Source: Sedimenticola sp. (GTDB lineage: Bacteria; Pseudomonadota; Gammaproteobacteria; Chromatiales; Chromatiaceae). Taken from it: 64,000 nt of DNA. The notes under the pieces are model-generated. The model was not told the DNA's origin. It searched no databases and saw only the letters and a list, made by a program, of their open reading frames with translations. The DNA is taken from contig PKUO01000052.1 of assembly GCA_002869585.1 (NCBI GenBank), positions 82,498 to 146,497 on the forward strand. Reading direction: 5' to 3'. The translations under genes and the position numbers were made by a program. Of this stretch, positions 26,899 through 40,414 are shown in pieces; within the stretch, counting starts at the first letter, position 1, and every line of letters starts with the position of its first letter.

Positions 26899-28251
26899 TC
26901 AGAAATAGCGCCAGTGGAGATAGAAACTGCTGATCAGGATCGACAGCAGCATCAACGGAAAGGCACCCAGCATAAACGGCAAGAAGCGAATGCGCTGACC
27001 GGAGCGCTCGGCAAAACCGGCGACAATCAGATTGGCGCTGGCGCCAACCAGGCTGCCGTTACCCCCCAGACAGGAACCCAGCGCCAACGACCACCAGAGT
27101 GGCTGCAACTCCTGTATTCCGCCAAAACTCACTGCCATACTCTTGATCAGCGGGATCATGGTGGCGACGAAGGGGATGTTGTCCACAATCGCCGAGGCAA
27201 CGGCGGAGACCCAGAGGATAGTGATTGCCGTGGTGGCGCGATCCCCGCCGGTCAGCGACAGCACCTTATGGGCAACCTGCTCCAGAATACCTGTGGTCTC
27301 CACCCCGTAGACGACGATAAACAGACCGATAAAAAAGAACAGGGTGGTCCACTCCACATCGCAGAATGTGGTGTGAACCAGTTCTGATTGCTTATTCGCC
27401 GGTTTGGGCAGGATATGCAGAACCAGGAGCATGGCGGCGCCGAACATGGCGACCGTGGCCGGCTGCAGTTGCAACGAATGCCCCTGGATAAAGCCGAACA
27501 TCACCAGCGCCAGGACCAACAATGACTGCTTCAGCAGGCGCGGATCCTTGATCGCATCTCTTTCGCGATATTTCATCACCCGTTCCTGCAGCGCCGGATC
27601 GGTTTTTATACGCCGTCCCCAGATCAGGTAAATCGGCACCAGTGTAACCGCGAGGATCACCACCACGATAGGCGCCAGATTGATGATGAAATCGTTAAAT
27701 CCCAGACTGGTGGCGGAACCGATCATGATATTCGGCGGGTCGCCGATCAGCGTCGCGGTGCCCCCGATGTTCGAAGCGAATATCTCGGAAAACAGATAGG
27801 GGTAGGCGTTCACCTTCAGGGTATCGGTAATCAGCAGGGTGACCGGCGCGATCAGCAACACCGTGGTGACATTATCCAGAAAGGCCGACAACACCGCGGT
27901 GACCAGCACCAGCATCACCAGCACACCCCAGGGATCGGCGTTTACCCGCTTCACCGACCAGATGGCCAGGAATTGAAACACCCCGGAATTCTTGGTGATG
28001 CCGACAATCATCATCATCCCGGTCAACAGCCCCAGGGTATTGAAATCCACCCCCTGAAAGGCCGCCTGCTGGGTAAGCACCCCGCCGATAATCATCAGAC
28101 AGGCAGCGCTGATGGCGACCACCGCACGGTTCAGGCGCTCGGTCATGATCATCAGGTAGGTCAGGACAAACAGCGAACCGGCATACCAGACAGGATCGAT
28201 ACCAAAGATGATCTGCGTGGCGAGTTCCGGATTGTGCATTGTCCCGTCCAT
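26899..28251 (-). CDS. ArsB/NhaD-family ion transporter (Na+/H+ antiporter-like)
   Basis: A 450-residue polytopic inner-membrane protein with about 11-12 hydrophobic segments. The IT-superfamily motifs typical of NhaD are present: SAFLDNVTTVLLIAPVT, SNIGGTATLIGDPPNIMIG, and in the second half SAIVDNIPFVATMIP and LGGNGSLVGASANLIVAG. NhaD antiporters exchange Na+ or Li+ for protons; substrate cannot be fixed from sequence. Its ATG overlaps the stop of a CBS-domain gene by one base, suggesting that the CBS protein regulates the transporter. Confidence 0.85.
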   Translation of the reverse strand: MDGTMHNPELATQIIFGIDPVWYAGSLFVLTYLMIMTERLNRAVVAISAACLMIIGGVLTQQAAFQGVDFNTLGLLTGMMMIVGITKNSGVFQFLAIWSVKRVNADPWGVLVMLVLVTAVLSAFLDNVTTVLLIAPVTLLITDTLKVNAYPYLFSEIFASNIGGTATLIGDPPNIMIGSATSLGFNDFIINLAPIVVVILAVTLVPIYLIWGRRIKTDPALQERVMKYRERDAIKDPRLLKQSLLVLALVMFGFIQGHSLQLQPATVAMFGAAMLLVLHILPKPANKQSELVHTTFCDVEWTTLFFFIGLFIVVYGVETTGILEQVAHKVLSLTGGDRATTAITILWVSAVASAIVDNIPFVATMIPLIKSMAVSFGGIQELQPLWWSLALGSCLGGNGSLVGASANLIVAGFAERSGQRIRFLPFMLGAFPLMLLSILISSFYLHWRYF

Positions 28252-28703
28252 TATGCTGAAAGTATGTGCTTACCCACATCCCAATAGGAGATCATGCCCA
28301 GCAGTTTGCAACTCCCCGGTTCCAACACCGGAATACTGGTCCGGGTATCATGCAGCAGAAGCAGCGTCTCGAGCAGCGGGGTATCCGGACGCACAGTGGC
28401 GATATCGGTATTCATGCACACCGAGATGTCCTGATCCTCGATCTCGCGAAAACGGTTATGCAGATCCTCCAGGGACTCGTGGATGAAGGAGATGTTTTTC
28501 AGCCCCTTTTCCATCAATACCGGCTTGGGCAAAACCAGCTTCAGAAGACAGTTGACGCCGAACACACCAAGATAACACCCCTCGTCATCCACCACCGGCA
28601 GGTTACGATAACGGTTTTCCATGATGAATCGCGCTGCCGTGCTGATCTTGTCGGTCGGTTTAAGAACTGTCGGATGGGGGTCCATTACTGCTGCAGCATT
28701 CAT
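28251..28703 (-). CDS. CBS-pair domain protein
   Basis: A 150-residue protein made almost entirely of two CBS repeats: the first about 1-60 (VMDPHPTVLKPTDKISTAA with RNLPVVDDEGCYLGVF), the second about 92-150 (TDIATVRPDTPLLETLLLL with TSIPVLEPGSCKLLGMI). CBS pairs bind adenine nucleotides and act as switches on partner proteins. It precedes and overlaps the NhaD-like gene, so control of ion exchange by cell energy state is a reasonable inference. It lacks a catalytic domain. Confidence 0.85.
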   Translation of the reverse strand: MNAAAVMDPHPTVLKPTDKISTAARFIMENRYRNLPVVDDEGCYLGVFGVNCLLKLVLPKPVLMEKGLKNISFIHESLEDLHNRFREIEDQDISVCMNTDIATVRPDTPLLETLLLLHDTRTSIPVLEPGSCKLLGMISYWDVGKHILSA

Positions 28704-28901: not shown

Positions 28902-29405
28902 TTACACGCCACCACTGTGAATAATCTCATAATAGATCTTTTCGAGTTCGTTCTTGTGCTTGGTCTCTTCATTGGCGAGAAACTGAAACAGGGACTGGAT
29001 CGGCCCCGGCTCGGTGCTTTCCGCCAATGCCGTGTACTGCTCCATGGCGGTATGTTCGCGCATCAGGGCGTACTGCAGCACAGCCTGGTCATCCGGCTTA
29101 TCCCCCAGGTCCGGCAGGTGGATGCAGTCTGAGAACTTATGGTCGCTGGCCGGTGTCATCACCTCTGCCTTGGTCAACTCCACCATCTCAGGATTGTTCG
29201 CAAGGTTACTGAACAGGTCGAAATGCTCCTGTTCCTCTGCAGCCAGCTCCTCCACCAGATAGCGGAGATTCTTGCTAACCTTGGGGATCAAATCGGAATA
29301 AAAATCCCGCGCGGTGCGCTCAAACTCGATTGCGACAGCAAGAATATCCTTCAGGCTGCTCTGAGACTTCAAACGCGCATAGCTGCTGCTTTCACCCTCA
29401 CTCAT
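28902..29405 (-). CDS. Ferritin-like diiron protein (rubrerythrin-related), last gene of the MBX-like operon
   Basis: A 167-residue four-helix protein of the ferritin/rubrerythrin superfamily. The iron-binding ExxH pairs are present: E in AIEFERTARDFY, EEQEH in VEELAAEEQEHFDLF, E in MREHTAMEQY, and EETKH near the C-terminus. There is no rubredoxin-type CxxC domain. The start at 29405 overlaps the stop of the upstream oxidoreductase fusion gene (ATGA), so it is translationally coupled to the complex. A peroxide-reducing or iron-handling role near the NAD(P)H module is inference. Confidence 0.82.
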   Translation of the reverse strand: MSEGESSSYARLKSQSSLKDILAVAIEFERTARDFYSDLIPKVSKNLRYLVEELAAEEQEHFDLFSNLANNPEMVELTKAEVMTPASDHKFSDCIHLPDLGDKPDDQAVLQYALMREHTAMEQYTALAESTEPGPIQSLFQFLANEETKHKNELEKIYYEIIHSGGV

Positions 29406-31204
29406 TTCACCGCCTCCTGTTGCTTGAGCCACTGCTCGATACTCTTTGCGACACGATGGCCATCAGCAACGGCATGCACCACATCCGGACCGTTCACACA
29501 GTCACCTGCCGACCAGAGCCATGACTCAGAAGTTCGACCATCTCTGTCCACCGCTATACGACCCCGGTTCCATTCCAGCGCTTCAGTCAGATCCTCACCC
29601 AGCAGGCTGATATCGCTCATCTGGCCAATCGCCTCGATGATCATCTCACCTTCGTGAATCTGTTCATCACTCTCATCGAACTTGGGTGCAAAACGGTGCT
29701 GTTCGTCGAATATGGACAATACCTTCCAGGTTTTCAAGCCAATCACCTTCCCGCTGCCGTCCACTTCACAGGATTGCGGTCCCCGACTGTCGAGGATATT
29801 GATGCCCTCTTCCAGGGACTCTTTCACCTCGACCTGATCGGCCAGAAAATGCGCCAGATCCTCCAAAGCCGTCAGGGTAACCTGCACCTCGCCATATTTC
29901 TGCTTCTGCAGACGCGCCATGCTGCGTGCGATATCCATCGCTACGTTACCCCCGCCGATCACCACCAGGGAGCGTGGCACCTCAACCGCCACTCCCAGGG
30001 TAATATCACGCAACAGATCCACCGCCTTGTAGACAGCAGGGTGATCCGAATTGGGGATGCGTGTCGAGCGTCCCTGCTGCAGACCGATGGACAAGACCAC
30101 CGCATCGCTCTCTTCACGCAACTGCTGCATGGGGATGTCCACGCCTATTCGGGTGTTGTAGTGGATATCGACACCCATTGCAGCAATGACACCCACATCC
30201 TGATCGAGAACGTCATAAGGCAGACGATACTCGGGGATACAGTAGCGTGTCATGCCACCCGCCTTGTCCAGTGCCTCATATACATCCACCTTATGCCCCT
30301 GCCGGGCCAGATCATAGGCGGCCGTGAGACCTGCAGGTCCGGCGCCGATAATCGCTATCTTCTTGCCGGTGGCTGGCGCTGTCTTGCCAACGATCTCCTT
30401 GTAACGCGCATAGGGCACCTGCTCGGTGATATGACGTTTGAGCCAACGGATCGCAATGGGATCGCCTTCATGGCTGGAGGCACAGGAGGTTTCACAACGA
30501 TGGGTACAGATGCGTCCACAAACCTCGGAAAAGGGGTTGGTGTCGTAAAGAATGGCCAGCCCACGCTCATAATCACCATCACGCACGGCGGCAATGTAAT
30601 TTGGAATGTCCATATGCGTGGGACAGGTAGCGATACAAAGCCCGCAAGCCACACAGCGATCAGCCTCCAGCTTCGCCTGATCAACGGAATAGCCGTTGAC
30701 GATCTCGACAAACGAATCGATACGCGCTTCCGCTTCAAGCTCGCCCATGTGCACCCGCGTACCAAGAGTCAACCTGTGCCCGTCCGGCCGTTGGTAGCCG
30801 AGTTCGGCGTCATCCCAATGTTTTTTATCCACCCCCGGCGTAAAGCGGAAGGCGTCCGGATCGATCTCCACCCATTTATACTCATTGGACATGGTCAACG
30901 AGCCGGTCATGCAGACATCGACACACAGCGCACACCAGCAGCAGCGTCCGTAATCGATGCGGGGCCGCAATCCGGAATCACCCTCTTTCACCGAACGCCC
31001 TTCGACTGGCAACATATCGATCGCCCCGTTCTGGCAAATCGTCTCACAGGTGCCGCAGCCGATACATTTCTCAACGTCATTTTGATGGAAGCCCCGATAG
31101 CGCGGTGCACCGGGCCGATCGTTCAGCGGATCGGCAATGGAGACCGGATCACGGAAGATATTCTTCCAGACGGTAAAGGGGGATAGGACGTCACGTATAC
31201 CCAT
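29402..31204 (-). CDS. NuoI-like ferredoxin fused to GltD-like NAD(P)H:acceptor oxidoreductase
   Basis: A 600-residue fusion. Residues about 40-115 carry two [4Fe-4S] motifs of NuoI/MbxN type: CIGCGTCETICQNGA and CCWCALCVDVCMTGS. From about 180 a glutamate synthase small-subunit module follows: CVACGLCIATCPTHMD and the Cys-rich VCGRICTHRCETSC (N-terminal Fe-S domain), an FAD Rossmann fold IAIIGAGPAGLTAAYDLA with GGMTRYCIPEYRLP, and the NAD(P)H-binding VVIGGGNVAMDIARS. The FAD-site SAGDCVNGPDVV is near the C-terminus. Electrons from NAD(P)H would thus enter the membrane complex directly, in place of NuoEFG. It lies between the NuoD-like gene (9-bp gap) and the diiron gene (4-bp overlap). A related layout of GltD-like proteins with MBX genes is known in some anaerobes; I do not know this fusion as a described enzyme. 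Confidence 0.88.
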   Translation of the reverse strand: MGIRDVLSPFTVWKNIFRDPVSIADPLNDRPGAPRYRGFHQNDVEKCIGCGTCETICQNGAIDMLPVEGRSVKEGDSGLRPRIDYGRCCWCALCVDVCMTGSLTMSNEYKWVEIDPDAFRFTPGVDKKHWDDAELGYQRPDGHRLTLGTRVHMGELEAEARIDSFVEIVNGYSVDQAKLEADRCVACGLCIATCPTHMDIPNYIAAVRDGDYERGLAILYDTNPFSEVCGRICTHRCETSCASSHEGDPIAIRWLKRHITEQVPYARYKEIVGKTAPATGKKIAIIGAGPAGLTAAYDLARQGHKVDVYEALDKAGGMTRYCIPEYRLPYDVLDQDVGVIAAMGVDIHYNTRIGVDIPMQQLREESDAVVLSIGLQQGRSTRIPNSDHPAVYKAVDLLRDITLGVAVEVPRSLVVIGGGNVAMDIARSMARLQKQKYGEVQVTLTALEDLAHFLADQVEVKESLEEGINILDSRGPQSCEVDGSGKVIGLKTWKVLSIFDEQHRFAPKFDESDEQIHEGEMIIEAIGQMSDISLLGEDLTEALEWNRGRIAVDRDGRTSESWLWSAGDCVNGPDVVHAVADGHRVAKSIEQWLKQQEAVK

Positions 31205-31213
31205 CGTAATCTC

Positions 31214-32401
31214 TTATCTCTCGATCTCTGGCGGATAGGTGTGCAGTGACACCATCAATCCGGCCACATCGGCAATATTCACATTCACGATAAATCGTTC
31301 CAGCAACGCCATGGCATGGGTATAGGAAGGACCACGCACATTCACACGACGGGGATAACCGCTGCCATCGGTGACCAGGTAATAACCGTACTCACCGCGC
31401 GAGCATTCACCGCGCACATAGGTTTCGCCCCGTGGAATCTTCCAGTGCAACACATTCGGCAAAGGCGCCATCACCGGGCCAGCTTTGGGCATCCTGACCA
31501 GGATCTGTCGAATCAGGTCGATCGATACCAACAGATCACGACGGCGCACATCGGAGCGCGCATAGATATCCGACTCGGTAGCGACAACCGGCTCGAAATC
31601 CAGTTCCGGATAGACCAGGTAGGGCTGATCCCTGCGCACATCCTTGGCCACTCCGGCAGCCCGCGCCGTCGGTCCGGTTACCCCATAGCTGTCGAGTAGT
31701 GCCGGATCGATGTAACCCACACCGACTGCACGCTTCTTGTAGATAGCATTGCAGAACATCGCCTCGTAGACATCCTGCAGGGTGCTTTCGATCTCCTGCA
31801 GGGTCTCTTCCATACGCGCTTCGAAGCCGTCAGGCAGACCATCACGCACGCCACCCGGCATGATGAACATGTGGTAGATACGCGCGCCGGTCAGCTCTTC
31901 AAAACGATCCAGCATCAGATCACGCACATAGGTGGTCCACTGGCCGATAACGCCCATGCCAAATGCACCGGCCTGTCCACCGAGGTACATCAGGTAACTG
32001 TTGATGCGCCCCATCTCCAGGATCAGCGTACGAATCCAGTTGGCTTTTTCCGGCACTTTAATACCGGCCAGCTCTTCCACCGCAGCGGCATAGCAGTATT
32101 CGTTGAAATCCGGTTCGGGTACGCAGATTCGGCAGACGATCGGAAAGCACTGGATGAAGGTACGCCGCTCCATCAGCTTTTCAAAGCCACGGTGCAGGTA
32201 ACCGACATGGGTCTTGCCCTCGACCACCTCGTCGCCACAGACGGTCAATTCGACCGACATATTGCCGGTGATACCGGGGTGTTGCGGCCCCTGCCAGAGC
32301 TTCAGATACTTGCCGGAAGACAGATCTATATCCAGCGTGCCATCGGCACGTTTTTCGGGATATTGGCTGCGGTCGTCCTGAAAGGGTTTAAACGGAGCCA
32401 T
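31214..32401 (-). CDS. NuoD/MbxL-like 49-kDa (NiFe large-subunit-like) protein
   Basis: A 395-residue homologue of complex I subunit NuoD and of the NiFe-hydrogenase large subunit. It has GPQHPGITGNMSV at the N-terminus and HVGYLHRGFEKLME. The first hydrogenase Cys motif survives as C90-R-I-C93 (in FPIVCRICVPEPDFNEY), but the C-terminal one (DPCxxC in hydrogenases) is replaced by IADVAGLMV at about 376-384, so no NiFe centre can form. This half-motif state is unlike ordinary NuoD, which has neither pair, and resembles MBX/MBS-type subunits. Separated from nuoC by 1 bp. Confidence 0.9.
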   Translation of the reverse strand: MAPFKPFQDDRSQYPEKRADGTLDIDLSSGKYLKLWQGPQHPGITGNMSVELTVCGDEVVEGKTHVGYLHRGFEKLMERRTFIQCFPIVCRICVPEPDFNEYCYAAAVEELAGIKVPEKANWIRTLILEMGRINSYLMYLGGQAGAFGMGVIGQWTTYVRDLMLDRFEELTGARIYHMFIMPGGVRDGLPDGFEARMEETLQEIESTLQDVYEAMFCNAIYKKRAVGVGYIDPALLDSYGVTGPTARAAGVAKDVRRDQPYLVYPELDFEPVVATESDIYARSDVRRRDLLVSIDLIRQILVRMPKAGPVMAPLPNVLHWKIPRGETYVRGECSRGEYGYYLVTDGSGYPRRVNVRGPSYTHAMALLERFIVNVNIADVAGLMVSLHTYPPEIER

Positions 32402-32402
32402 G

Positions 32403-32939
32403 TTACTTGCCGTCCGGGTAGAGTTGTTCTTTCATATGCTGAGCCGGGTCCCGGGTTTCACGTCCCGGCCGCTGCTTATAGGTTTCATCGGCATACTTGA
32501 GGGTATCGAAATCACGGCGGTATGGCGGAATGTCTGCCCAACCCTCCAGAATGAAATCCTCGTTCAGCCGGGTACTACCAGGGAAATCGATGCCGAACAT
32601 CTCGCGCAGCTCGCGCTGATAGGTCGCCGCTGTCGGCCAGATATCGTGAATGCTCTCCATCGTCGCTTCATCACGCGGGATCATCACCCGCACACCGATA
32701 TCCCTGCCATGAGTACGATCACTGAGCAGATAAGTAAGTTGAAACTCACCCTCTTCCAGCCAATCCACTGCGGTCAGAATCACCAGATGTGTGAATCCCT
32801 CTTTGTCGCGCAGATGCATCAGCAACGGGCGCAACTGCCCCCTGCCTGCTGTCACGAAGGCCAGATCGGGACGCTGTTCAACCGGGTCGGTCAGCGAATA
32901 GGGTGTTGTGAGACTTTCCAGCAATTCACGCATTGTCAT
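32403..32939 (-). CDS. NuoC/MbxK-like 30-kDa subunit
   Basis: A 178-residue hydrophilic peripheral-arm subunit. The core LVILTAVDWLEEGEFQLTYLLSD and the conserved signature of 30-kDa subunits, YQRELREMFGIDFPG, are present, followed by a C-terminal tail with PPYRRDF. It is separate from the NuoD-like gene, unlike the NuoCD fusion of E. coli. An alternative start is Met3. It contacts the NuoD-like subunit and has no cofactor of its own. Confidence 0.9.
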   Translation of the reverse strand: MTMRELLESLTTPYSLTDPVEQRPDLAFVTAGRGQLRPLLMHLRDKEGFTHLVILTAVDWLEEGEFQLTYLLSDRTHGRDIGVRVMIPRDEATMESIHDIWPTAATYQRELREMFGIDFPGSTRLNEDFILEGWADIPPYRRDFDTLKYADETYKQRPGRETRDPAQHMKEQLYPDGK

Positions 32940-32942
32940 TGG

Positions 32943-33584
32943 TTACCAGTTGTAGTCCGGCATATCCCAGTCCAGAATCACCTTCTTCTGGTTTGCCTTG
33001 TACCATTCAAAATTCTCGGCATATTGGTTGGCGCCCTCCGCCTTGCCAGCGCGAATGAGTTTTTTCAACTCCTCGAAGCCTGCCAACAGCGCTTCCGGTC
33101 GCGGCATGCAGCCTGCGATATAGAGATCGACCGGCAGATAGTCATCGAGGCACTTGATAGTGTTATAGGAGTCCCAGTACATACCACCGTTGATGGTGCA
33201 GGAGCCCAGGCCAATTACATACTTGGGGTTCTGCATCTGCTCGTATGAACGGATGGCACGCTTGAGGGTCTTGACCGAGAGATAGCCTGAAATGATAAAC
33301 AGATTCGACTGACGCGGGGTGGGACGCCACTGCACGCCGTAGCGGTAGGCATCAAAGCGTGGCGTCATCAGCGGGCGCATCTCGATGGCGCCACAGCCTG
33401 TTCCGAAACCCAAAATCCAGAGCGACTCGGCCCGCGCCCAGTTGAAAAAGCCTTCGATGATCTTCGAATAGGCCTGAGGCATGACAGTGGGTGCCGCCTC
33501 GCAATAGTAATCGCGCAGCGGTTCGACCTCGAACTCGATCCCGTCAGGGCCTTTTACGATACGTTTTTCTAACTCTTCTTTCAT
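32943..33584 (-). CDS. NuoB/MbxJ-like Fe-S subunit
   Basis: A 213-residue subunit carrying the terminal (proximal, N2-like) [4Fe-4S] cluster. Cysteines fall at C64 (FGTGCGAIEM), C129 (GLGSCTINGG) and C159 (IAGCMPRPEAL). Complex I NuoB has two adjacent Cys at the first position (CC); here it is Gly-Cys, so one expected ligand is missing. Other Cys are C28 and C145. Such three-Cys ligation has been discussed for sulfane reductases and would leave a coordination site open; that is inference here. Gaps of 3 bp separate it from both neighbours. Confidence 0.9.
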   Translation of the reverse strand: MKEELEKRIVKGPDGIEFEVEPLRDYYCEAAPTVMPQAYSKIIEGFFNWARAESLWILGFGTGCGAIEMRPLMTPRFDAYRYGVQWRPTPRQSNLFIISGYLSVKTLKRAIRSYEQMQNPKYVIGLGSCTINGGMYWDSYNTIKCLDDYLPVDLYIAGCMPRPEALLAGFEELKKLIRAGKAEGANQYAENFEWYKANQKKVILDWDMPDYNW

Positions 33585-33587
33585 AAT

Positions 33588-34493
33588 TTACACCAGCAGG
33601 ATCGCAAGAATGCCCAACGGCATTGCCCAAATCAGGAACCAGCGAATCGACTGCTCGACACGAAAACGCGGGAACGCCACGCCGACAAAGGCCGACACCA
33701 TGTAGATCAAAAAGACCTTGAGGAAAAAGATCGGCCAGTTGGTCGCGCCACCGAAAAAGAGATTCGTGTAGATCACAACCTTGGCCACAGGAAAAATCAC
33801 CCGGTTGGTCTGCATCAGCGCCAGATAGGAGGAGTGGTATTCCGTCGGTGGTCCTATGGGGATCTCCTGCGGGGCCAGCACCACATCGAAGGGCGGTCGC
33901 ATCATGGAGCCGAGAAAGGCCATCATCGCCGCCACCACAGCCAAGGGGTTAGTGAACAGCGTCCAGTTGAGGACACTACCCTGCTGGGCGGCCACGATCT
34001 CGGTGATCGACAGCGTCTCGTACTGAAGCGCCACCGAGAAGACCGCCAGCGCCATCGGCAACTCAGCGGCAGTGACCTGTGAAAGACCGCGTGTAATACC
34101 AATTGCGGAGTGCGGAGATCCGCTCTCGGCCGCACCCAGCGCCATACCCAGTGTGCCGAAGAAGATAAAATAGAGTGCCAGGATCAGATCGCCGGCAAAC
34201 GACAGGTTGGAGAACATCTCCGAGCCATAGATCGATGGCACGAACAGCAGCAGCCCGACACCACCGCTCAAGCGGAACACCGGTCCCAGATAGAACATCA
34301 CGCCATGGGTAATGGAGCTGCGCAGCCCGTAGTTTTTGATCAGGTCGATATAGTTCTGGTAGATCGGGATACCGTGACGACGCCCGACACGTGCCGCAAT
34401 TTTGGCGATAAAGGCCGTCATCAACAGGCCATAGTTGACGACAATAAACAACGTCAACAGCGAATAGGGGATTTTGATCCATTCAAATTCCAT
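33588..34493 (-). CDS. NuoH/MbxM-like membrane subunit
   Basis: A 301-residue membrane protein with about eight hydrophobic segments, the link between peripheral arm and ion-pumping arm. Recognisable signatures include ARVGRRHGIPIYQNYIDLIK near the N-terminus and the loop MMRPPFDVVLAPQEIPIG with the acidic chain used at the quinone or coupling site in complex I. Downstream of the large antiporter fusion by 2 bp and upstream of nuoB by 3 bp. Confidence 0.9.
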   Translation of the reverse strand: MEFEWIKIPYSLLTLFIVVNYGLLMTAFIAKIAARVGRRHGIPIYQNYIDLIKNYGLRSSITHGVMFYLGPVFRLSGGVGLLLFVPSIYGSEMFSNLSFAGDLILALYFIFFGTLGMALGAAESGSPHSAIGITRGLSQVTAAELPMALAVFSVALQYETLSITEIVAAQQGSVLNWTLFTNPLAVVAAMMAFLGSMMRPPFDVVLAPQEIPIGPPTEYHSSYLALMQTNRVIFPVAKVVIYTNLFFGGATNWPIFFLKVFLIYMVSAFVGVAFPRFRVEQSIRWFLIWAMPLGILAILLV

Positions 34494-34495
34494 GG

Positions 34496-37400
34496 CTACA
34501 CCCCCATCCGAACGAAGAAGACCACCACAACAAAGAGCAACAGATGATAGGCATAGGTCTGTCCGTTACCGGTGTAGAGCCGTCGCACAAGGTTGGCTGC
34601 GGCATGTAGAAAATCGGTGATGGTGTTCCAGAACAGCGTCACGAACGGCTGCACCATGAAGCCGAGCGCCTTGCGGTAAGGTGCGAAGAAGTTCCAGGCA
34701 AAGTGCGTGGTCTCGGGCCGGTAAGGACGTTCTGCCGAAAAGACGATATTGAACTGCTTCACCTTCTGCGCCTTGCGATTCACAAACAACAGCCAGAAGA
34801 ACAGCAGCATAAAGATCACACCGATGATGATCATGATGTTGATCGGACTCCAATACCCGTACTGACTGGTAATCAGCAGTCCATCCCAGCCCAGCCCACC
34901 ATTGGGGAAAAAGTCGTTGAGATAGCGATCCACATGACGCAGAGCGATACCGGGAACCAGCGCGAACACCAGCAGACAGGCGACATAGATCATCTGCGGC
35001 AATATCAACCAGAATGGTGCCTCCTTGATCCGACGATGTTCATCCTTCAACTGACCGAGGAAGATCGTATGGATCAGACGGAACAGATAGAGGAAAGCCA
35101 CCGGTACGGAGAGAAAAATGATCAGCATCGGCAGGCGATATTCGCTCGACATGATGGCGTTATAGAAAATCCAGCGCCCTCCGAAGCCGGACAGCGGCGG
35201 CACACCCGACACAGCGATAATGCCAATCATGACCGCGATAAAGCTCAGCGGCATCAGCGTAATCAGACCACCCATGCGATACATATCGCGAGTGCCTGTG
35301 CGCTTGGCCACGCCACCCACGGACATGAACAGCATGGACTTGTAGATGTAGTGATTGATCACGAACATCAACGCCATCAGCCAACCGAGGTGGTTCATCA
35401 ATGCGAGACCGAACAGCGCGTAGCCCATCTGTCCAATCGAGGAATAGGCCAGAAGCCGCTTAGCGTCCTCCTCGAAGATCGCCATCAGATTACCCAGTAA
35501 CGCCGAGAGGGCCCCGATCCAGAGCATCACATAGTTGAGCTTGATACCGTGCAGCTCCTGAATACCCATGCCCAGCATCAGCATCATCAAACCATAGAGA
35601 CCAGCCTTCAGGAGGATACCTGACACCATCGGCGACACGTCGGTCTCGGCCTCTGCATGGGCGCCGGGCAACCAGATGTGCAGGCCAATCGCGGCCGTCT
35701 TGGTCATGAAACCAACCGCCAGCAATATGAACACCCAGGGCGCGAGCGGTGTCGCCACTTCACTCAGGGATTGAATAGTGAAATGCACAGCACCATCTGC
35801 CGCCAGCGCAAAACCTGCCAGGATGGAAAATGCCCCCGCCAAAGAGAATATGGCATAGGAGAGCGCATGGGGTTCTGAATGCTTGCCGCGCAGAATCAGG
35901 AAATAGGAACCGATAGTCAGGAGTTCCCATGCGGCAAAGAAGTCGAACGAATCAGTAGCCCGGATCAGCATCACCAGTCCGGCATACATCAACATGGCGC
36001 CGGGATAGAAACCAATGCGTTTTCCGCTTGTGTGGAAGCTCGCCAGCAGCGTGAGCGCTCCGCCCAGGGTAAAGATGATGATAAATATCAAGCGCAGCGG
36101 ATCGTATTCGGTATAGGTCATGGCGAAGTAACCGACCAGACCGCTAATGGCCACGATGTTCTTGAACCAGGCTGGCAACCACTCCAACAGCAGGAAGGCC
36201 AGCGCAAACAACAGCGGTAATGCGAGCAGCAGATTGGCGCGCCCGGACAACTCGCCCCACAGAAAAGCCATCGCCCATCCAGCAACTACTGCGGCGAAAA
36301 TCACAACCTGTTTCAGCGGGTCAGAAACCACACCCTGCGCCGGCCGTTCCCGCTTGATGATGTATCCAAACCAGCGGAACAGATAGCCCGCCTCGATCAG
36401 TGCGCCAAACAGAATCAATGCCAGCAGAGCCAACCGGCCTTCCGCGGCCAGATAGCGAGCCAGTTCCCACTTGGCGTAAAAACCCGGGAATGGCGGCAGG
36501 CCGACCAACAGAAATACAAAGGTCAAGAAAGCAAAAATCAGCAGCGGATGGCCGCGCAGCGCACTCCAATCGGTAAGCCCCCGCCCGGCAACCAGTCCTG
36601 ACAACCAGTAGAGACCCGCTTTACCCACCGCATGGGCAATCAGCACACCGAAAGCGATGTAGTAGTAATCGTCACCCAGAATGTCGCGCTGCCCCAGCAC
36701 CGTAAACACCAAACCGATCTGTGCAATCGATGAGTACCCCAACAGACGCCGGTCATTGCTCTGTGACAACGCCAGGGTGTTGGAGACAACGAAGGTGACA
36801 ATCCCGATTGCGGTGGCAACCGGTAGCCAGCTCACACCACCGATCAGCAGCAGTTTATCCACCGCATAGAGCGCAGCCGCGCCGGTTGCCGCGGAAAAAA
36901 TCGCGGAAAAGGCCGGATGCGCGGATTCATATATATCCAATGCCCAACCATTCGCCGGGAAAGGCTTCAGCTCGGCCACAATGGCGATGAACATCAGGAA
37001 GAAGGCGATGACACCCCCTTGCAGCGCCATGAGATCAGCACCCGCCATCCCATCAATATTGAGCGTGCCTGTGGCATGGTAGGCGAAGATAATGCCGACC
37101 AGCAGCAGCACCGAAATGATCTGCGAGGCAATCAGATATTTGAAACCCGCCGATAACGCACGACTGTTGGACTGCACATCATCCGACAGCAGAATCAGAC
37201 CACCCGTCGAGATCACCACCAGTTCGAAGAAGACGAACAGGTTGAATATATCCCGGGTCAGGATAATGCCCGACAACGCCATGATGGCGATTAGCAGCAC
37301 AACCAACGAACGCCGCCCCAGACGGAACAATACCTCTTTCAGATAGAGCGCTGAGAGCAGCCCGGTCAGATTGACCAGAAGGGTCAGCACCGCCTCGGGC

Positions 37401-37633
37401 AACCCCATACGCAGATTGATGGCGAAGGGAGGTTCCGTGCCTGCCGTCAGTATGTCAACCGCTTCCGCCCCTTGCCAACCCAGCGCCCATACCCAACCGG
37501 CAGAAACCCAAGACATAAACGCGAGCGCTGCAAGGGTGATGACATAGGCAAGACCGCGCCACTGCTCCTTGAGAAAACCGAGAATAAAGGCAGCAGCCAG
37601 GGCCGCAATGATGATATAGACCGCGCTCACCAT
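34496..37633 (-). CDS. Fusion of two MrpD/NuoM-type antiporter subunits
   Basis: A 1045-residue membrane protein built from two proton-translocating domains (PF00361 type). The first (about 1-480) has the conserved transmembrane Glu E137 in FVFFELVVIS and Lys K223 in AELKPFPANGW. The second (about 485-1045) has E570 in FFAAWELLTIGS and K645 in GFMTKTAAIGLHIWLPGAHAEAETDVSP, plus a long C-terminal tail with an amphipathic segment and a final membrane helix (YHLLLFVVVVFFVRM). In MBX/MBH complexes the equivalent subunits (MbxH and MbxH') are separate genes. No stop or frameshift lies at the junction. It would give two ion channels per polypeptide. Confidence 0.9.
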   Translation of the reverse strand: MVSAVYIIIAALAAAFILGFLKEQWRGLAYVITLAALAFMSWVSAGWVWALGWQGAEAVDILTAGTEPPFAINLRMGLPEAVLTLLVNLTGLLSALYLKEVLFRLGRRSLVVLLIAIMALSGIILTRDIFNLFVFFELVVISTGGLILLSDDVQSNSRALSAGFKYLIASQIISVLLLVGIIFAYHATGTLNIDGMAGADLMALQGGVIAFFLMFIAIVAELKPFPANGWALDIYESAHPAFSAIFSAATGAAALYAVDKLLLIGGVSWLPVATAIGIVTFVVSNTLALSQSNDRRLLGYSSIAQIGLVFTVLGQRDILGDDYYYIAFGVLIAHAVGKAGLYWLSGLVAGRGLTDWSALRGHPLLIFAFLTFVFLLVGLPPFPGFYAKWELARYLAAEGRLALLALILFGALIEAGYLFRWFGYIIKRERPAQGVVSDPLKQVVIFAAVVAGWAMAFLWGELSGRANLLLALPLLFALAFLLLEWLPAWFKNIVAISGLVGYFAMTYTEYDPLRLIFIIIFTLGGALTLLASFHTSGKRIGFYPGAMLMYAGLVMLIRATDSFDFFAAWELLTIGSYFLILRGKHSEPHALSYAIFSLAGAFSILAGFALAADGAVHFTIQSLSEVATPLAPWVFILLAVGFMTKTAAIGLHIWLPGAHAEAETDVSPMVSGILLKAGLYGLMMLMLGMGIQELHGIKLNYVMLWIGALSALLGNLMAIFEEDAKRLLAYSSIGQMGYALFGLALMNHLGWLMALMFVINHYIYKSMLFMSVGGVAKRTGTRDMYRMGGLITLMPLSFIAVMIGIIAVSGVPPLSGFGGRWIFYNAIMSSEYRLPMLIIFLSVPVAFLYLFRLIHTIFLGQLKDEHRRIKEAPFWLILPQMIYVACLLVFALVPGIALRHVDRYLNDFFPNGGLGWDGLLITSQYGYWSPINIMIIIGVIFMLLFFWLLFVNRKAQKVKQFNIVFSAERPYRPETTHFAWNFFAPYRKALGFMVQPFVTLFWNTITDFLHAAANLVRRLYTGNGQTYAYHLLLFVVVVFFVRMGV

Positions 37634-37986
37634 CTCAGCTCCGTAAACTTCCCGATATCAAGGGAGCGTTTTTTCTCATACAGCTTGTAGGCAAAGGCCA
37701 GCATCAGCGCAGTCACCCCCATACCGATGACAATCGCCGTCAACACCAATGCCTGCGGCACCGGGTCGATAATGCGTGTCACCGCCTCAGTGGCAGAAAC
37801 CGCCGAATCAAGAATAGGCGCCGTGCGTCCATTCATATAACCCACCGCCACCAGGACGAGATGAACGCCGGTATTCGCTACGGAGAAGGCGACGATCATG
37901 CGCAGAATATTGCGATTGGTCAGCGCACCGTAAAATCCAATGAGAATCAGGGCGAATCCGGTCGCCATGGCCAGTTGCGCGATCAC
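37627..37986 (-). CDS. MrpC/NuoK-like subunit
   Basis: A 119-residue protein with three hydrophobic segments: LAMATGFALILIGFYGAL, ILRMIVAFSVANTGVHLVLVAVGY and ALVLTAIVIGMGVTALMLAFAYKLYE. This matches MrpC/MnhC and NuoK. Its 3' end overlaps the large fusion gene by 7 bp, and its start overlaps the MrpB-like gene by 4 bp. Confidence 0.88.
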   Translation of the reverse strand: MIAQLAMATGFALILIGFYGALTNRNILRMIVAFSVANTGVHLVLVAVGYMNGRTAPILDSAVSATEAVTRIIDPVPQALVLTAIVIGMGVTALMLAFAYKLYEKKRSLDIGKFTELRW

Positions 37987-38681
37987 AGCTCCTCCGCTTC
38001 AGACAGGTTGCTCAATATCGAGGAGAACTCCGCTCCGACCTTCAGACCGATCAGCGAATAGATCAGGGGAATCGCACCCGCCGAGAACAGCTGCCCAAAC
38101 TCCCCAATGGGCAAGATGCGGTTATCCAGAAAACCACCCGCAAGCAACAGGCCGAGGACACCGATCACCACATAGGAGAAACCGGAAAATGACTCGATAA
38201 TCGAAATCAAACGATGATTGAAACGCTTCACCGGATTGGCCAGTAACAGAAGCAACATGGCCGATGCGACGACCGCCCCCCCCTGAAACCCGCCACCAGG
38301 AGTCAGGTGACCATTAACGAAGATATAGATACCCAGAAGAAGAATCAGCGGCAGGAGCGAATGACTGCCCGTTGTCAGCAGTTCACCAACCGGCGCCTTG
38401 ACAGTTTGCGCCGCGCCCGCCCCTCGGCTACGAGCCAACACCAACCCGACAATGGCAGCCGCCAGAAACAGGACTGTCACCTCACCCAATGTATCGAGAC
38501 CACGGTAGGTGACGATAATGGCGGTCACGATATTGGCCGCGCCGATATCCTTGGCCGTGTTTTCCGCATAGTACTGCGCGGTTAGATTCAGATTTTCATC
38601 TGCCGAATAACCGGTCAACAAGGTAAAGAAAATTCCCCCGATAATCGTCAGAAGCAGCAGGGCGGCAGCGCGCTTAATCAT
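37983..38681 (-). CDS. MbhE/MbhF-like fusion (MrpA C-terminal piece plus MrpB)
   Basis: A 232-residue membrane protein. The N-terminal third (IKRAAALLLLTIIGGIFFTLLTG, then NIVTAIIVTYRGLDTLGEVTVLF) corresponds to the MbhE-type end of MrpA; the C-terminal two thirds have the MrpB core IFVNGHLTPGGGFQGGAVVASA. The start at 38681 has a GGAGG ribosome binding site and an 8-bp overlap with the upstream gene; six more codons are open to 38699. Archaeal complexes usually encode the two pieces separately. Confidence 0.85.
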   Translation of the reverse strand: MIKRAAALLLLTIIGGIFFTLLTGYSADENLNLTAQYYAENTAKDIGAANIVTAIIVTYRGLDTLGEVTVLFLAAAIVGLVLARSRGAGAAQTVKAPVGELLTTGSHSLLPLILLLGIYIFVNGHLTPGGGFQGGAVVASAMLLLLLANPVKRFNHRLISIIESFSGFSYVVIGVLGLLLAGGFLDNRILPIGEFGQLFSAGAIPLIYSLIGLKVGAEFSSILSNLSEAEEL

Positions 38682-38928
38682 TCTCGCCTCCGCGCACACG
38701 ACTCAACACAAAGAAAAACAGGAAGGTCGTCAGGCCGCTTCCAATGGCCGCTTCAGTCATGGCGACATCCGGGGCAGCGAGAACGAGGAACAACACCGAC
38801 GCAATCAAACTGACCAGACCGGCAGAGAGAATGGCAATCGGCAGGCTTTTGCCCTTGATGGCCACCAGTGCGGCCCCGATAAGAACCACGGCAAGCAGCA
38901 CTACCATTGCCAGTATCAGAGCACTCAT
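38674..38928 (-). CDS. MbhD/MrpA-type small membrane subunit (DUF4040)
   Basis: An 84-residue protein with three hydrophobic segments and the conserved APDVAMTEAAIGSGLTTFLFF motif (first part APDVAMTEAAIGS), characteristic of the hydrogenase-subunit/MrpA linker DUF4040 (MbhD). The Glu in TEAA lies in a membrane helix and is thought to be part of the ion path. Overlaps mrpG by 4 bp. Confidence 0.87.
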   Translation of the reverse strand: MSALILAMVVLLAVVLIGAALVAIKGKSLPIAILSAGLVSLIASVLFLVLAAPDVAMTEAAIGSGLTTFLFFFVLSRVRGGEND

Positions 38929-39263
38929 GGTTTCTCCCCGAAATCTTCCTCTAGCTTATCCACGCAGGTCTTATCGGACATCTTCGTACCGCTGCGATGC
39001 GCCGCACGAGCCAGCACCTGAGAGGAGATCGGATTGGTAAAGAGAATAAACAGGCCGATCAGAAGCAGCTTGAAACCCCACTCGGGCCGCAGGCAAACGA
39101 CACCGGCAAGCGTAAGCAGTGTGCCCAGCGTAGTCGCCTTGGTACCCGCCTGAATCCGGTTGAACAGATCGGGCATGCGCACCAGTCCCAGCCCACCGAA
39201 CAGCAGAAAAGCCGCACCGCAGACCAGCAATAGCCCACCCAGCAAATCAAAAAACATGGACAT
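38925..39263 (-). CDS. MrpG/MnhG-like subunit
   Basis: A 112-residue membrane protein with three hydrophobic segments. The conserved GLVRMPDLFNRIQAGTKATTLG is diagnostic for MrpG/PhaG, and TNPISSQVLARAAHRSG closes the family core. A hydrophilic C-terminal tail extends past the usual end (KTCVDKLEEDFGEKP). It shares one base with the mrpF stop. Confidence 0.92.
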   Translation of the reverse strand: MSMFFDLLGGLLLVCGAAFLLFGGLGLVRMPDLFNRIQAGTKATTLGTLLTLAGVVCLRPEWGFKLLLIGLFILFTNPISSQVLARAAHRSGTKMSDKTCVDKLEEDFGEKP

Positions 39264-39523
39264 TAAAATCCTCGTTCGAGGTAGCGTGCAACAGCAATCA
39301 CGCCAAGGAAAGACAGCAAGGCATAGACCAGCGCCACATCCAGATAGATACCGCGCCCCTCAACAAAAGCGGCCAGAACTATCGCGCTAATCGAGATAAT
39401 CGTCAAAACATCAAACGCCACCACCCGATCGGCATCGGACGGCCCTTTGACGAATCGATAAAGCGCCAGCAGCAAGGCAACACCAACGATTGCCGCAGCA
39501 ATATAGATAAAAACCTCAGCCAT
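39263..39523 (-). CDS. MrpF/MnhF-like subunit
   Basis: An 86-residue protein with three membrane segments and the MrpF signature FVKGPSDADRVVAFDVLTI between the first two, followed by DVALVYALLSFLGVIAVARYLE. It overlaps mrpE by 8 bp and mrpG by 1 bp. Confidence 0.92.
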   Translation of the reverse strand: MAEVFIYIAAAIVGVALLLALYRFVKGPSDADRVVAFDVLTIISISAIVLAAFVEGRGIYLDVALVYALLSFLGVIAVARYLERGF

Positions 39524-40013
39524 ACATGACCTCTAGATACTGCTCAAAACCGGCCACAATACTGGTAGTAGCCGCCTCAACATCCGCTGACTCTACTTTG
39601 ACCCAGTGCACATAGAGCCATTCATCATCGAGTTCGACGGTCAGCGTTCCCGGCGTCAGGGTGATGGAGTTGGCCAGCAGCAGACGTCCCATTTTGCTCT
39701 TCAGTCGTGTGCGCACCTTTACGATACCCGGCTCCACTGGCAATGAAGGAGACAGCACGATTCGGGCCAATCTGATGTTCGCGTTGATCAACTCCTTCAC
39801 GAAATAGACTGCATAGGCGAGCGCTGCCATCAGCGCCTGGGGTGTTACACGCAATTCCGAAAAAACGGCAAGGCTGTCGCGAAACAGGAAAGGGATGAGC
39901 AGCGCCACACCTATGCCGACCAGCACCACATCAACAGCGACTGAGCCGTTGAGCAGCAACCAGAAGAGCAGCAAAGTTGCAAAGAGTAATGCGAAATCCT
40001 GAGCCTTTTTCAT
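39516..40013 (-). CDS. MrpE/MnhE-like subunit, first gene of the MBX-like operon
   Basis: A 165-residue protein with two or three membrane segments at the N-terminus and the MrpE core VKVRTRLKSKMGRLLLANSITLTPGT (core part LLANSITLTPGT), then VELDDEWLYVHWV. An ATG at 40013 follows GAAGGTGA; a TTG codon directly before it also keeps the frame. It is the first gene of a 13-gene run on the minus strand. A possible promoter is at about 40060-40090. Confidence 0.9.
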   Translation of the reverse strand: MKKAQDFALLFATLLLFWLLLNGSVAVDVVLVGIGVALLIPFLFRDSLAVFSELRVTPQALMAALAYAVYFVKELINANIRLARIVLSPSLPVEPGIVKVRTRLKSKMGRLLLANSITLTPGTLTVELDDEWLYVHWVKVESADVEAATTSIVAGFEQYLEVMYG

Positions 40014-40414
40014 CAAATCACCTTCACCAAATCCAGTTTTGCACCTGCAGCATTAATGATTGCTCATTTTATCAAGTTCTGAAATGAGTCTAATCAACAA
40101 ACATGCCGAAAGGTACATAATCTAATCTTGCTTGGTCGTGACTGGCGTGGAATTCACATCGAACATTACGCCCGTTTCAGTGCACCGCCCGCACCATAAC
40201 GGGTCTGCATGACAGTAATTTTACCAGTCTCAGGCACAACCCATCGCCGTTGATTTTGTTGATCTACCGATAACGCGGAACTATCGCCTGTCGCCACGGA
40301 TAAAACCGGTAACGTCATCAAACGTTTATATTCACGTAACATTTCAAAGGTAATCTGCGATCTGGGAGAAGCCGTCACAATCCTTGAACGGCCAAAGTCA
40401 TGAAGGGCAGACCG
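40014..40414. other. Intergenic region of about 400 bp upstream of the MBX-like operon
   Basis: On the minus strand a promoter candidate reads TTGATT-N17-TGATAA roughly 60-90 bases upstream of mrpE. Between 40166 and 40342 a minus-strand frame could encode 58 residues (MLREYKRLMTLPVLSVATG onwards to KRA); the text looks protein-like but has no clear ribosome binding site, family match or confirmed start. The frame stays open to 40705, passing antisense under the next gene. I see no other feature. Confidence 0.4.

Follow-up and report, generated by a model that had tools for sequence, protein, structure and literature searches.

The window, a 64,000-nucleotide stretch of the Sedimenticola sp. 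genome, carries at 31214-32401 on its minus strand an intact open reading frame of 395 aa encoding a NuoD/MbsL-like subunit (hereafter D), which belongs to the kind that we call type A and has MbsL as its top solved match (6u8y_L, E 5.1e-93); the plus strand over the same interval contains several stops. On the same minus strand lie genes for a NuoC-like subunit (32403-32939, PF00329), a NuoB/MbsJ-like subunit of 213 aa that carries the proximal cluster (32943-33584; top solved match MbsJ, 6u8y_J, E 6.3e-65), a NuoH-like membrane anchor (33588-34493, PF00146), a 1045-aa protein with two antiporter-like domains (34496-37633, PF00361 in two stretches), and NuoK/MrpC-like (37627-37986, PF00420), MbhE plus MnhB-like (37983-38699), MbhD-like (38674-38928, PF13244), MrpG-like (38925-39263, PF03334), MrpF-like (39263-39523, PF04066) and MrpE-like (39516-40016, PF01899) subunits, such that Mrp-type subunits and the peripheral arm are encoded together within the window. 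Next to the other end of the D gene, again on the minus strand, a single protein (29402-31204) joins a NuoI-like 2[4Fe-4S] domain to an FAD and NAD(P)H oxidoreductase of the GltD/NfnL kind. This NuoI-GltD fusion matches PRK13984 (NCBIfam NF010590) over nearly its full length at 878.2 bits, below the curated cut-off of 946, and is a relative of that family. A rubrerythrin/ferritin-like protein (28902-29432, minus strand) is a frequent neighbour after the fusion gene and adjoins it in many loci of types A and Ct. The operon is also adjoined by a CBS-domain protein (28251-28703) and a CitMHS/ArsB-type transporter (26899-28251); among the neighbours in the best 80 of 157 genome_contigs loci, many of them short, there was no CBS match and there were two weak transporter matches at 28-33% identity.

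The enzyme encoded here is an Mrp-linked complex of the MBS/Mbx type without nickel, and not an ordinary complex I, for which the same genome has a separate NuoD on contig C26. D scores highest against 6u8y_L (315 bits), followed by 2fug_4 (217 bits) and 6cfw_L (137 bits). The quinone-contact His and Tyr of complex I (Nqo4 H38 and Y87), kept in all 15 complex I rows, are replaced in D by T45 and V94, which rules out a quinone reductase that uses the complex I contact residues. With complex I NuoD/Nqo4 the subunit has in common the 49-kDa family (PF00346) and the arginine pair R71/R91; it differs in lacking the quinone residues, in a NuoB partner without the tandem CC, and in the Mrp-type subunits of its operon. 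The P. furiosus MBS, a sulfane sulfur reductase whose MbsL and MbsJ (6u8y) are the top solved relatives of D and NuoB, shares with the present complex an Mrp-type membrane arm, the RICVPEPD motif, three NuoB cluster cysteines and the absence of both the nickel site and the quinone residues. In contrast to MBS, the complex studied here has C90 where MbsL has L82 and Y389 where MbsL has C385; a cysteine is missing from the MbsJ C25 position, and NuoI forms one protein with a GltD-like NAD(P)H module. Group 4 [NiFe] hydrogenases (MBH) share common ancestry with D, in which C93 corresponds to the first cysteine of their L1 motif, but three of the four nickel ligands are gone. By its description, the putative Mrp-Mbx complex of Candidatus Endoriftia, a sulfur-oxidising symbiont, is a system of the same kind, and the function and direction of MBX are listed as unknown in the available part of that 2024 study of the Riftia symbiont (PMC11636981).

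The cysteines of D lie at positions 55, 85, 90, 93, 103, 217 and 333, with none near the C terminus. The preliminary description had placed C90-R-I-C93 on the N-terminal L1 motif of [NiFe] hydrogenases as a retained CxxC pair. The motif itself is present and is not a product of chance, both cysteines being found in 80 of 80 genome_contigs loci (the best 80 of 157), but its assignment to L1 does not hold. When a profile of 234 relatives was aligned to two [NiFe] hydrogenases of the same genome, R91-I92-C93 fell on the R-I-C of RICGVC and RICGIC, which puts C93 (codon 32123-32125, minus strand) on the first L1 cysteine, equivalent to MbsL C85, and E96 (codon 32114-32116, minus strand) on the second, which has been lost. 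C90 (codon 32132-32134, minus strand) lies three residues upstream of the first L1 cysteine and stands opposite Q or A in both hydrogenases; neither the hydrogenases nor MBS have a cysteine there. Likewise, V-C90-R-I-C93-V-P-E aligns with L-L82-R-I-C85-V-P-E of P. furiosus MbsL, where C85 and C385 were numbered by counting from the first residue of the aligned stretch, in agreement with the published numbering. One L1 cysteine is therefore kept and not two, and on this shift of three residues we rejected an L1 register for the pair.

The C-terminal L2 cysteines had also been described as gone, which is correct, although the site is not the IADVAGLMV then quoted: the true L2 place is SLHTYPPEIER (Y389 and E392), a few residues further on, and Y389 (codon 31235-31237, minus strand) stands opposite C385, the L2 cysteine that MBS retains. 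Of the four cysteines that bind nickel in [NiFe] hydrogenases, C93 alone remains in D. The subunit is thus an intermediate form only by the number of nickel cysteines that survive, one here against two in MBS and none in complex I, and not as the heir to a CxxC pair of L1. What C93 represents is an unremarkable relic of the first nickel ligand. The notion that such a relic shapes a sulfur-reacting site finds no support, given that in the available text of the MBS study the MbsL C85A/C385A double mutant has approximately wild-type activity (PMC7684303).

To place these residues in a wider context, we collected 251 D rows, including the source gene, MbsL and a T. thermophilus stretch, which reduced to 189 non-redundant rows; two fragments (L136 and L140) were left untyped, and the complex I rows, of which 16 were reduced to 15 with the T. 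thermophilus stretch among these, served as controls only. The genome searches covered Pseudomonadota. Relatives were found in 102 of 210 genomes of the source genome's own order and in 11 of 317 genomes of a second order, and across the phylum five of 398 genomes (the source genome included) had a close relative and one further genome a distant one. The matches examined in the order of genome G687 proved to be ordinary complex I. No relative was present among 19 stretches in a scan of viral_contigs, and tblastn against plasmids (246 records) gave none at 60% identity or above, those among the matches listed having 32-35%. In the dsrA co-occurrence comparison, 22 of 38 relatives lay above the cut-off, both with and without the complex, and dsrA is not discriminating.

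The 171 non-redundant Mbx relatives and MBS make up five kinds, defined by positions 90, 93 and 389 of D. Type A, to which the source gene belongs (n=87), has C90, C93 and Y389; type A2 (n=8) has C90, A93 and Y389, with a fusion match extending past residue 200 in seven of the eight; type B (n=18) has C90, C93 and C389 together with a stand-alone NuoI, the GltD part being found in the fetched DNA of none of the 18; type Ct (n=58) has P90, C93 and C389, with the NuoI-GltD fusion beside D in 56; and MBS has L90, C93 and C389. Complex I (n=15) has Asp (14 rows) or Pro (one row) at position 90 and Asp at position 93 throughout. The claim that ordinary NuoD keeps neither L1 cysteine thus stands at position 93 in all 15 control rows and fails at position 96, where three rows (L106, L114 and L117) have a Cys on the second L1 place (DRLDYLC), a cysteine that is probably convergent. 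Nor is the CRIC pair invariant among close homologues, as C90 is missing from 58 and C93 from eight of the 171 relatives. The preliminary description had itself named, as the observation that would overturn it, close homologues that lack the CxxC while keeping the same operon; types Ct and A2 are such homologues, because they mostly keep the fusion gene beside D. Type A2, which does without C93, also led us to reject an essential CxxC disulfide unit, and C93 is non-essential in its own lineage.

The conserved residue is C90, outside L1. It is present in 113 of 113 sequences of types A, A2 and B and is the sole invariant cysteine of D in that clade, compared with 105 of 113 for C93 and 18 of 113 for C389; columns 55, 62, 85, 103, 217 and 333 vary, and C90 alone among 18 tabulated cysteine columns of D is never lost. 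Its presence is mirrored in NuoB. At the position of MbsJ C25, which is G61 in the source NuoB (codon 33402-33404, minus strand), complexes with C90 have Gly or Ala in 105 of 105 cases (79 of type A, eight of A2 and 18 of B), and complexes without C90 have Cys in 51 of 51 (50 of type Ct and the P. furiosus MBS), a comparison that leaves out NuoB sequences lying off the contig or outside the fetched stretch (8 of 87 for type A and 8 of 58 for type Ct). The complex I NuoB also has Gly at position 61 without a C90 in its partner, but there the tandem CC adjoins. NuoB C64 (33393-33395), C129 (33198-33200) and C159 (33108-33110; all codons on the minus strand), which correspond to the MBS cluster ligands MbsJ C28, C93 and C123, are invariant where readable. 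NuoB's three cysteines and C90 therefore make four at the site, and in type A2, where C90 is the last site cysteine of D, the same sum gives four. Our literature search, of partial coverage and hence no proof of absence, found no earlier description of this exchange.

In a tree of 76 sampled rows, from which columns 90, 93 and 389 were omitted, the C90-bearing rows formed one supported clade (99/94), so the exchange is a single event; the branch uniting Ct and MBS was weak (92/44). The columns that separate the C90 clade from both Ct and MBS number 23 in D and 13 in NuoB. Because a single event is involved and 22 other columns of D and 12 of NuoB separate the same clade, the perfect association by itself proves little, and since the exchange is confined to one branch of the tree we infer, rather than observe, a function for C90. 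Moreover, the loss of the C25 cysteine need not be the loss of a ligand, because in the available text of the MBS study C25 does not bind the cluster, whose ligands are C28, C93 and C123, and the C25A variant has activity comparable with wild type (PMC7684303), such that MBS activity needs neither C25 nor C85/C385.

With these constraints in mind, we are inclined, with moderate confidence, to read D as an MBS/Mbx-type L/D subunit in which C93 is a relic and C90 lies beside the cluster, substituting for the NuoB cysteine. In this complex an Mrp antiporter membrane arm is joined to a complex-I-like peripheral arm, and NAD(P)H would feed the complex via the fused NuoI-GltD subunit, judging from its domains. 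C90 would most likely lie at the interface of D and NuoB beside the proximal [4Fe-4S] cluster, a nearness suggested by homology, and would replace the cysteine at the MbsJ C25 position that is missing from the same complexes. An AlphaFold model of D alone had a mean pLDDT of 60.8, with values below 50 at residues 66-104, the region of C90. Seen in this way, C90 is fixed in its clade and would have changed places with a cysteine of NuoB, in a variation on the MBS theme. In our proposal C90 provides an intersubunit thiol at the proximal cluster; it could be the fourth ligand there, possibly a releasable one, or could react with a sulfur substrate beside a cluster of three cysteines.

R91, the residue next after C90, does not vary in any Mbx, MBS or complex I row, and the arginine pair R71/R91 of the N2 surroundings is retained in D. 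By alignment R91 corresponds to what we take to be R84 of T. thermophilus and presumably, in the Yarrowia numbering, to NDUFS2-R141. In the available account of N2, Yarrowia and Thermus differ by an intersubunit arginine switch, in which the side chain changes subunit and the same space is filled, and this switch could by analogy be a precedent for the exchange between C90 and NuoB.

The exchange bears on a general question of the complex I superfamily, namely the relation between ion pumping and the ligands of the last iron-sulfur cluster. The cited literature, in the parts available, describes two designs outside the hydrogenases, namely complex I with its tandem CC in NuoB and MBS with its open site; the open iron of MBS accounts for the conversion of its cluster to [3Fe-4S] by ferricyanide. 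It is a tentative possibility that the proximal [4Fe-4S] cluster receives its fourth ligand, C90, from the neighbouring subunit, and that this intersubunit ligand is switchable or even releasable. If true, the cluster through which electron delivery is coupled to ion pumping would exist in a third design, beside the strained tandem cysteines of complex I and the open iron of MBS. With three cysteines in NuoB and an invariant one in NuoD, this widespread proteobacterial branch would be a natural test of the role of the fourth ligand, and the view of CRIC as a hydrogenase relic is corrected.

Alternatively, C90 might act on a sulfur substrate through its thiol, forming a persulfide or mixed disulfide with it by the open iron of a three-cysteine cluster as in MBS. 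The three ligand cysteines of NuoB, the absence of the quinone residues and the closeness of D to MbsL among solved chains are all consistent with such a role, which we nevertheless regard as doubtful: the available text of the MBS study holds that no amino-acid thiol is thought to be involved in catalysis (PMC7684303). The literature covered contained no assay of a proteobacterial member. A reading in which C90 has no special role and marks the clade, having become fixed alongside the other differences of the same branch, is unlikely. The many columns that separate the clade, and the restriction of the change to one branch, would fit such a marker, but this reading sits poorly with a cysteine that is never lost while its neighbours at 85, 93 and 103 vary. 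Finally, an inherited L1 CxxC pair forming a sulfur-reacting site is highly improbable, since the spacing of the pair and the place of C93 do agree with L1 but the register is off by three, C93 is Ala in all eight type A2 sequences, seven of which have the fusion gene, and DMTS reduction by MBS does not need the corresponding cysteine of MbsL in the available MBS report (PMC7684303).

The collected loci also hold several observations of their own. The type B loci, among L194-L210 together with L142, combine C90 with a stand-alone NuoI-like ferredoxin subunit, the GltD part being absent from the fetched DNA, and a ferredoxin-fed version of the complex seems likely. In the type Ct locus L141 (G325:C10:11000-16653) the NuoI-GltD fusion is split over two frames and the D match holds a TAA, anomalies that reflect decay or an assembly error. 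Lastly, two genomes have two kinds of the complex each, namely A2 and Ct in G1230 (L232 and L244) and A and A2 in G1117 (L227 and L233).
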